Assembly (NCBI RefSeq): GCF_025998535.1
Contig: NZ_AP024233.1
Location: 2,612,001-2,676,000, forward strand
DNA length: 64,000 nt
Direction: 5' to 3'
Source of the DNA: Desulfolithobacter dissulfuricans
GTDB taxonomy: Bacteria > Desulfobacterota > Desulfobulbia > Desulfobulbales > Desulfobulbaceae
The stretch's first letter is position 1; each line of letters starts with the position of its first letter. Below, piece by piece: positions 62,008 through 64,000 of this stretch. The translations under genes and the position numbers were made by a program. The notes under the pieces are model-generated. The model made no database searches. It was not told the origin of the DNA and saw only the letters and a list, made by a program, of their open reading frames with translations.

Positions 62008-63093
62008 TCAGTCTCCCAGACAGATACCGATTTCCCGAGCGGTCATGACCTTGTCGCTCTCCAGATCAACCATCTTGCGGGAGCTGACCGCCTCGGCCAG
62101 GGGCACTGCCGACATGCAGGGGGGCGTCCAGGCCACCATGTGATCAAAGGTGCCAGCTTCAGCCATCCGAACAGCTGCCGCACCAAAACGAAGGGCCAGC
62201 AGCCGGTCAAAGGTGGTCGGCGAGCCGCCACGCTGCAGATGCCCCAGAACCAGGGAACGGGTATCCTTACCCAGTTTTTCCCGGATCTGCCGGGCCACCC
62301 GTTCGCCGATCCCGCCCAACACTACCTCCTGGCGTCCCAGTTCCCCCTTTTCCTTGACGACAACCGTGCCGTCCTTGGCCTTGGCCCCCTCGGCCACCAC
62401 GACAATGGAGTAGTGCTTATCGTGGAGTTCGTTATCGGTTATCTTTTCGCAGACCTTATCGATATCAAAGGGAACCTCGGGGATGAGGATAACATCGGCC
62501 CCGCCGGAGATTCCTGAGTAGAGCGCGATCCAGCCCGATTCCCGCCCCATAACCTCCACCACCATGACCCGGTCGTGGGACTTGGCGGTGGAGTGGAGCT
62601 TGTCCAGGGCCTCGGTGGCGGTGGCCACCGCGGTATCAAAACCAAAGGTCCGGTCGGTGGCCTTGAGATCGTTGTCGATGGTCTTTGGTACCCCGATGAC
62701 CGGCATACCCTTCTGGGCAAACCGGTGGGCTATCTCCAGACTGCCATCCCCTCCCACGGCAATGTGGCAGTAGAATCCCATCCGTTTGAAGTTTTCCAGC
62801 ACCCGGTTGGAGACATCCACCACCTTGACCTCGCCGGCCAGGTTGGTAATCGGCATGGCAAAGGGATTTTCCTTGTTGGTGGAGCCGAGAATGGTACCGC
62901 CGATGGGAGTAATGCCCTCCACTTCCTTGGGAGTCAGGCGGACCAGGTCATCGTAGTCAAGCAGGCCCCGGTAGCCGCTGCGGCTGCCATAGACCTCCCA
63001 GCCCCGCATGGAAGCCGACTTGACCACCGCATAGATGACAGCGTTGAGGCCCGGCGCATCGCCTCCACCTGTGGAAATAACTATCTTACGCAT
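62008..63093 (-). CDS. pfkA: 6-phosphofructokinase
   Basis: Phosphorylates fructose 6-phosphate in glycolysis. The 361-residue protein starts MRKIVISTGGGDAPGLNAVI and has IAVGGDGSLEIAHRF, the PKTIDNDL catalytic loop, the GRESGWIALYSGI hinge and MVVEVMGRE. The combination GGDGS with PKTIDND (Gly in the phosphate-donor loop but Lys instead of Gly in the other) is typical of the ATP-dependent group III clade, though PPi use cannot be excluded. The ATG at 63093 follows a GGGGGA-rich site. Longer in-frame starts (to 63231) lack conservation. Confidence 0.95.
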   Translation of the reverse strand: MRKIVISTGGGDAPGLNAVIYAVVKSASMRGWEVYGSRSGYRGLLDYDDLVRLTPKEVEGITPIGGTILGSTNKENPFAMPITNLAGEVKVVDVSNRVLENFKRMGFYCHIAVGGDGSLEIAHRFAQKGMPVIGVPKTIDNDLKATDRTFGFDTAVATATEALDKLHSTAKSHDRVMVVEVMGRESGWIALYSGISGGADVILIPEVPFDIDKVCEKITDNELHDKHYSIVVVAEGAKAKDGTVVVKEKGELGRQEVVLGGIGERVARQIREKLGKDTRSLVLGHLQRGGSPTTFDRLLALRFGAAAVRMAEAGTFDHMVAWTPPCMSAVPLAEAVSSRKMVDLESDKVMTAREIGICLGD

Positions 63094-63292: not shown

Positions 63293-63321
63293 TTGACTTC
63301 CGTGGCGAAGTGTCGTATTCT
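63293..63321 (+). promoter_or_regulatory. Promoter of the HesB-like selenoprotein gene
   Basis: TTGACT (63293-63298), a 17-base spacer, then TATTCT (63316-63321). A leader follows with a short hairpin (ATCCTG/CAGGAT) and a T-rich stretch, and then AGGAGG six bases before the ATG. Confidence 0.75.
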
Positions 63322-63397
63322 ATTTAAGATAAAATAGAGACAACTACATCCTGAACCAGGATGTTGGGATTTTTTTCAATACTGCAAGGAGGATGTC

Positions 63398-63733
63398 ATG
63401 CTCGAAGTGACAAGTTCTGCAATCCAGAACTTAAAAAATTATCTCTCACAAAATAACATTGACTCGGCGGTCCGGGTCGCCCTGATGCAGGGTGGCTGAG
63501 CTGGTCCCTCTCTGGGTCTGGCTCTGGATGAGCCTAAAGAAAACGATCAGAAGTTTGAAGAAGACGGCCTGACCTTCCTGGTGGAGCAGGGACTTCTCTC
63601 TTCGTGCGGCAATATCAAGATCGACTTCATCGATGCCGGTTACCGTTCCGGATTCTCCATCACCTCGACCAACCCGGTTGGCGGTGGAGGAGGATGCAGC
63701 TCGGGTTCCTGCGGTTCAGGATCCTGCGGCTGA
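63398..63733 (+). CDS. HesB/IscA-like selenoprotein (in-frame TGA read as selenocysteine)
   Basis: The frame starts MLEVTSSAIQNLKNYLSQNN with AGGAGG upstream, and TGA occurs in frame at codon 34 (63497-63499). It then continues AGPSLGLALDEPKENDQKF to a normal stop. 111 codons follow the HesB/IscA fold (FIDAGYRSGFSI; C-terminal CSSGSCGSGSC cysteines). Codon 34 aligns with the first conserved metal-ligand Cys of IscA (QGGU-xGPS), the usual Sec site in HesB-like selenoproteins. A candidate SECIS hairpin lies 20 bases on. It probably serves iron-sulfur or redox chemistry. Confidence 0.85.
63520..63534 (+). promoter_or_regulatory. Candidate bacterial SECIS hairpin
   Basis: GGCTC (63520-63524), loop TGGAT, GAGCC (63530-63534). 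The loop starts 26 bases after the TGA, within the spacing expected for SelB-bound SECIS stems, and has a G in its second position as the bacterial consensus requires. It is inside the coding region, as normal for bacteria. Confidence 0.65.
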
Positions 63734-63756
63734 TCACCCTGCCACAACTCGTCAGA

Positions 63757-63835
63757 TCGAGTAGGGTGAGGCAAGGTAATTAAGCTTGCCTCATCCCTCT
63801 CACAGAACCGTACGTACGGGCCTCGTATACGGCTC
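63757..63835 (-). ncRNA. 3' end of a group II intron (domains V and VI)
   Basis: On the minus strand, 63805-63835 reads GAGCCGTATACGAGG and returns to CGTACGTACGGTTC, a stem-bulge hairpin like catalytic domain V. It is followed by a domain-VI-like helix (about 63757-63804, GATGAGGCAAG pairing with CTTGCCTCA) and the sequence CCCTACTCGAT near 63757-63766, which looks like the intron 3' end. The element runs out of the window on the right. Confidence 0.75.
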
Positions 63836-63850
63836 CTGTTTATTTTTCCT

Positions 63851-64000
63851 TCATACTGAAACAGAAATTCCGGTCTGTACAGATGCGAGGTCAAAGAGCC
63901 CCATTTCCCCATGCAGGCAGCTGTTGGGAAGGGCATAATGGCTCAGTGGACTTGCTGCATTGGCCCAGGAGTTCATCTTGATACTTTTGAACTCTCCTCT
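63851..64000 (-). CDS. Group II intron reverse transcriptase/maturase (C-terminal fragment)
   Basis: A minus-strand frame open at the window edge reads RGEFKSIKMNSW, then ALPNSCLHGEMGLFDL, and stops at 63851. The pattern (x-Y/F-ALPN-x-x-x-H-x-x-GLF-x-L) resembles the DNA-binding/maturase C-terminus of intron-encoded proteins. It lies just upstream of the domain V hairpin, as expected for an ORF in domain IV. Only about 49 residues are visible. Confidence 0.6.
   Translation of the reverse strand, partial: RGEFKSIKMNSWANAASPLSHYALPNSCLHGEMGLFDLASVQTGISVSV

Follow-up and report, generated by a model that had tools for sequence, protein, structure and literature searches.

An IscA/HesB-family selenoprotein gene in Desulfolithobacter dissulfuricans with selenocysteine predicted at the first conserved cysteine position

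The last part of the window—the whole stretch of 64,000 nucleotides that was analysed—raises the question of how a TGA codon lying within a conserved reading frame is read, and what the product would do for its host if the codon specifies selenocysteine (Sec). With that codon translated as Sec, positions 63398-63733 of the plus strand form one gene of the IscA/HesB family, 111 residues and a stop: translation begins at the ATG at 63398, passes the TGA at 63497-63499 as codon 34 and ends at the final TGA at 63731-63733, leaving the product with a Cys-rich Gly/Ser C-terminal tail (GGGGGCSSGSCGSGSCG) in which the cysteines are spaced C-x4-C-x4-C. A first, sequence-only reading of this DNA had placed the in-frame TGA in conserved sequence with exact coordinates, and the same TGA recurs in 65 collected sequences, 63 of them distinct. 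It had also expected ordinary annotation to call two fragments or to miss the gene: the ORF list contains no plus-strand ORF of at least 60 amino acids at this place under the standard code, so that naive ORF calling would indeed pass it over, yet NCBIfam now has a model for the subfamily. The features of the gene and its leader are these:

63398..63733, plus strand: IscA/HesB-family selenoprotein gene, Sec predicted at codon 34 (translation, NF038090, PF01521, model match to IscA structures)
63497..63499, plus strand: UGA codon for the predicted Sec34 (opposite the first conserved Cys of E. coli IscA in the alignment; TGA or Cys codon in the collected homologues)
63520..63534, plus strand: candidate bacterial SECIS upper stem-loop GGCUC-UGGAU-GAGCC (pairing in Sec versus Cys rows, pair counts, energy, spacing)
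63293..63321, plus strand: sigma-70-type promoter-like site TTGACT-17-TATTCT (similar sites in Sec rows)
63386..63392, plus strand: ribosome-binding site AAGGAGG (direct reading)
63346..63376, plus strand: 5'-leader hairpin (63346-63364), then T7 (63370-63376) (leader z = -2.6 in the window)

Comparisons with relatives draw on rows from 81 loci (L022-L102, the window's own locus L029 included), from which 65 Sec entries, the window's own sequence among them, and 15 Cys entries were kept; distinct over 48 nt, these comprise 63 Sec rows and 15 Cys rows. Identical rows were dropped by 93 nt, 48 nt or protein, as was one spurious reading frame in L086, and the Sec rows represent the best-scoring loci, not a random draw. 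An alignment of homologues had been proposed as a check on codon 34, and the collected rows do carry Sec or Cys there, as does the separately found L030 (Cys), though the pattern by which rows were found accepted TGA or a Cys codon alone and would miss other residues at this position.

The signals for expression are well formed, in keeping with the good ribosome-binding site and near-consensus promoter reported from the sequence: AAGGAGG lies 5 nt before the ATG, and the promoter-like site has 9/12 matches. Of 42 Sec rows, 40 have a site of the form TTGAC-N-(16-18)-TAnnnT in the 250 nt upstream, against 0.9 expected from shuffles, as do 4 of 12 Cys rows, against 0.24 expected. The terminator-like hairpin and T7 between promoter and start codon are possibly an attenuator or an mRNA-stability hairpin; leaders with z below -1.5 number 13/42 among the Sec rows versus 2/42 among control stretches, with mean z of -1.0 versus -0.07. 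A conserved attenuator was considered and left as a lead, the leaders sharing no sequence by eye and a T-run lying near a hairpin only in some of them, and a match of the leader to the Rfam family BTncRNA_FopS (24.1 bits against a gathering score of 56) was taken as chance.

The family assignment is provided by NF038090 (IscA_HesB_Se, NCBIfam), which covers residues 1-102 over the full model with 148.3 bits (E 6.6e-44) against a cut-off of 85 and thus places the protein squarely inside the family by score, with no difference in what was compared; the HesB/IscA-like selenoprotein of a described family that had been recognised from the letters is the right assignment. The Pfam model of the HesB/IscA fold, PF01521, is likewise passed (33.5 bits, cut-off 26.3), and TIGR00049 is approached (54.6 bits, cut-off 58.8). 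TIGR01911 (HesB_rel_seleno), at 42 bits under a cut-off of 66.35, represents a different subfamily of HesB-like selenoproteins. The equivalog models of IscA, SufA and ErpA give 38.3 of 150.6, 39.2 of 136.2 and 31.8 of 117 bits, none reaching its cut-off; the gene product is not filed under any of these three names and may work in an A-type-carrier-like manner. An AlphaFold2 monomer model, built with Cys in place of Sec, has a mean pLDDT of 81.9, with residues 96-111 below 50, and in a Foldseek search of the PDB the best six fold matches of this model are IscA/SufA structures (E 4.4e-07 to 5.1e-06, TM 0.63-0.70), Allochromatium DsrR (2k4z) being ranked ninth.

Classic A-type carriers have three Cys ligands in the pattern C-x(~63)-C-G-C. 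The window protein shares the fold and the first-ligand position of E. coli IscA and SufA (1r94, 1s98, 2d2a), residue 34 aligning with the Cys of SGCSG in IscA (1r94), which is the first conserved Cys and bears out the earlier placement of the TGA at a metal-ligand position. It differs from them in carrying Sec for Cys as the first ligand, in a C-x4-C-x4-C tail where C-G-C is absent, and in an extra Cys70, so that the three-Cys pattern is not found. The sequence U34-A-G-P corresponds to the UxGP motif given for HesB-like selenoproteins in the broad sense in Table 1 of PMC13188914, and in this respect the protein resembles the HesB-like selenoproteins of that source and of PMC1794560, whose Table 3 has HesB-like entries for several Deltaproteobacteria and none for Desulfotalea psychrophila.

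The host, a sulfur-metabolising member of the Desulfobulbaceae, to which the closest named homologues of the gene belong as well, carries the window in a single contig of 3,596,428 bases, and its genome contains the Sec machinery whose presence had been predicted from the TGA. SelB (380.2 bits), selA (637.4 bits) and selD (351.8 bits) all score above curated cut-offs, and a tRNA-Sec reaches 73 bits where the gathering score is 47, with ARAGORN independently assigning the anticodon tca (UCA). With an in-frame TGA close to its start, the host selD (L011, G000:C1:2931160-2932086) counts as a selenoprotein gene too. In Table 2 of PMC12013277, Desulfolithobacter dissulfuricans GF1 (GCA_025998535.1) is credited with 22 known selenoprotein genes, 22 detected and 0 new; of 298 selenoprotein genes in its 20 test genomes, that work found just 195 correctly annotated. 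The GF1 proteomics paper PMC9751629 mentions none of selenoprotein, HesB, selenocysteine or selenium in its main text. The family and the recoding mechanism are thus already known, in print or in curated models, and the gene is probably catalogued among the GF1 selenoproteins; as a discovery it amounts to little, adding one well-formed gene to an established selenoprotein family.

What the locus does offer is a clear example of how the contrast between Sec and Cys genes can narrow a SECIS element to 15 nucleotides. The hairpin GGCTC-TGGAT-GAGCC (5 bp, 63520-63534) is fully paired in all 63 distinct Sec rows versus 1 of 15 Cys rows; without the distant relative L079 (Bacteroidota), which was kept among the Cys rows, the latter figure is 1/14, and with L030, a sixteenth Cys gene from outside the row pattern whose hairpin is broken (3/5 pairs), it is 1/16. 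The loop UGGAU has 5 nt with G at its second position, begins 25 nt after the UGA and closes a stem of 5 bp, and the energy is -7.6 kcal/mol as a 15-mer and -8.8 with flanks. The bSECIS model of PMC13188914 calls for a loop of 3-9 nt, a stem of 4-16 bp, a G within the first two positions of the loop, a distance of 16-37 nt from the UGA and a minimum free energy of at most -7.5 kcal/mol, and this hairpin falls within all of these limits, that of energy only narrowly.

Across the 63 Sec rows, the second pair is G-C 47 times and G-U 16 times, the third C-G 61 times and U-A twice, and sliding the partner strand by one column lowers the paired cells from 100% to about 41%. Codon choice is frozen as well: Ala42 is GCT, Leu43 CTG and Glu45 GAG in all 42 of the first Sec rows, whereas the codon of the equally invariant Ala8 varies (GCT 17, GCA 11, GCG 11, GCC 3 in 42 Sec rows), and in L095 the protein reads AE in place of DE with the hairpin still kept. 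A two-sided compensatory change, GGTTC/GAACC, is confined to L099 and L101 (2/63 rows), both of family f26, and although the covariation score of the short hairpin is reached by only 1 of 500 shuffles, its two further pair types are reached by 500 of 500, which is no excess; the evidence for the proposed element thus rests on conservation and the Sec/Cys contrast, not on covariation. Selection keeping the TGA, the SECIS and the reading frame together is supported by these comparisons.

A SECIS-like hairpin had been claimed at the outset with no place given, and the claim holds in so far as the conserved 5-bp hairpin exists, yet that hairpin, and not the lowest-energy local fold, is the structure kept best among the rows. 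Computed over the local 60 nt, the lowest-energy fold does not stand out from shuffled sequence (z -1.46, equalled by 22 of 200 shuffles). It is a longer stem starting at the UGA; counted together with a 2-pair helix, this stem has 88.1% of cells paired versus 100% for the short hairpin, four pairs failing in 12-24 of the 63 rows each, and it was therefore rejected as the core element. The longer stem nevertheless has a covariation score of 0.117 and nine two-sided-change cells, reached by 0 of 500 shuffles, and may serve as a lower stem; the best structure containing the conserved hairpin has -14.8 kcal/mol and the free minimum -16.7.

From these observations, SelB with Sec-tRNA(Sec) would decode the UGA at codon 34 under the direction of the SECIS hairpin 25 nt downstream, and that the codon is decoded as Sec we regard as nearly certain. 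The product would be a protein of the IscA/HesB fold, that of A-type carriers, with Sec replacing the first conserved cysteine. In a dimer, Sec34 and Cys residues of the mobile, Cys-rich tail could hold between them an iron or Fe-S centre, which the protein would then hand to client apoproteins, in a host whose genome has matches to scaffolds of the NifU/IscU type and none of the SufB/SufD type. Taken as a whole, this account of a functional gene for a Sec-containing protein with the IscA/HesB fold, explained as an A-type carrier, is very likely; for the narrower proposal of a function like that of an A-type Fe-S carrier our preference is modest, the missing C-G-C tail and the disorder of the tail in the monomer model, built with Cys for Sec, being points against it. 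NF038090 and PF01521 each have one match in the host genome, and the window gene is the only A-type-carrier homologue found there. NifU_N has three matches, and SUFBD_core has none at E 0.001, whereas all 14 control genomes match it; host Fe-S assembly probably proceeds on NifU/IscU-type scaffolds.

The main rival to the carrier role is that the selenol acts as a redox catalyst, Sec34 forming a selenenylsulfide with a tail Cys or with Cys70 in a thiol/persulfide or peroxide reductase, a role that would match most selenoproteins known so far. The flexible Cys-rich tail and the clade-conserved Cys70 would provide the partners, the ClpB-like chaperone gene that lies downstream on the plus strand in 17 of 28 named loci (L052-L079) is a hint of stress, and the majority of uncharacterised selenoproteins are likely redox proteins according to PMC13188914. 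Against it, fold and Sec position are those of A-type carriers, no UxxC or CxxU motif surrounds Sec34 (UAGP), the more distant Sec members L085-L102 lack Cys70, and the carrier role would otherwise be vacant, this being the only A-type homologue found in the host genome; we consider redox catalysis unlikely.

Less probable still is that the same selenoprotein binds or moves other metals or metalloids (Hg, As, excess Fe) instead of serving Fe-S building. Selenolates are strong binders of soft metals, which speaks for such a role, as does one crystal form of E. coli IscA that is, by its structure title, a mercury derivative; metal-related selenoproteins are also described in PMC13188914. The identified neighbours (HhH-GPD, phosphofructokinase and ClpB-like) include no metal-resistance gene, an argument whose weak point is that other ORFs in the relatives are unannotated. 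That the TGA is a true stop, through sequencing error or in a decaying pseudogene, is scarcely credible and already contradicted: some relatives do have an additional Cys copy, but the same TGA with the fully paired hairpin stands in 63/63 distinct TGA rows and in dozens of genome records, frame and protein are conserved on either side of it, and the host has the full Sec machinery.

The gene also raises the question of whether Fe-S biogenesis of Desulfobulbales is selenium-dependent through Sec in the only A-type carrier. In a profile survey, 90 of 96 genomes (the host's own included) have a family match, as do 171 of 296 in a phylum sample. Exactly one match is present in 39 of the surveyed genomes and bears TGA in 36 of them, the single matches in G009, G023 and G095 being without TGA and that in G007 having TAA besides TGA. 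PF01521 was set aside as a survey tool in favour of NF038090; it matched only 17 of 42 family genomes, many of which have NF038090 members, so that its silence says little.

Nine loci (L022, L036, L038, L040, L042, L065, L085, L093, L096) contain a Sec copy and a Cys copy as neighbours, and these loci supply 9 of the 15 Cys rows. A protein tree built from 79 rows, residue 34 being masked, requires eight Sec/Cys label changes, at least six of them on well-supported branches; it is unrooted and short (110 columns) and does not by itself give the direction of change. In L070 the Cys gene still has a perfect hairpin and clusters with two Sec genes, while in L022 and L038 the Cys copy is a single base short of an intact SECIS hairpin; the perfect hairpin of L070 and the near-perfect one of L022 suggest a change from Sec to Cys. 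Such a change in the HesB-like family, with a SECIS-like remnant, has been reported in PMC1794560 (two events in Table 1; Figure 4 legend). Within a partial literature search, nothing turned up on a repeated occurrence of adjacent Sec and Cys HesB genes, which we do not take as absence from print, and the identifier NF038090 was not found in the literature searched. We put forward only tentatively the wider idea that in the host, and in most of those relatives that have one family member only, the sole A-type Fe-S carrier is a selenoprotein and Fe-S delivery is selenium-dependent, with repeated escape by duplication into a Sec/Cys neighbour pair or by a Sec-to-Cys swap, the pairs being possibly selenium-responsive isoforms.

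The surroundings of the gene are partly shared with relatives and partly disturbed by a group II intron, the two neighbouring features in the window being these:

62008..63093, minus strand: 6-phosphofructokinase, divergent neighbour (PF00365, 346.2 bits)
63771..63837, minus strand: group II intron 3' domains D5/D6, outside the selenoprotein gene (RF00029, 39.1 bits, just below the gathering score of 40)

A phosphofructokinase homologue lies on the minus strand on the same side in 17 of the 28 named loci and an HhH-GPD (endonuclease-III-like) homologue on the minus strand in 15, as counted in flanks of at most 3 kb, many of them truncated where a contig ends; L070, L073-L075 and L077-L079 have neither of these nor a ClpB-like neighbour. 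The window keeps both upstream genes, and the minus-strand intron separates the selenoprotein gene from the ClpB-like gene. The sequence shared by four intron copies, the window's included, reaches to a point near 63756, which leaves 22 nt between it and the stop codon, and the selenoprotein gene is thus intact. The intron spans 63756-64000 and continues past the window to at least window coordinate 65761 (L103), with a reverse transcriptase/maturase ORF and domains D1-D4 in the adjoining genome. Matches to its 74-nt 3' end number 33 in the 3.6-Mb genome, 17 of them identical and 16 at 96%, and several of these lie 2.09-2.11 kb apart, suggesting head-to-tail arrays.
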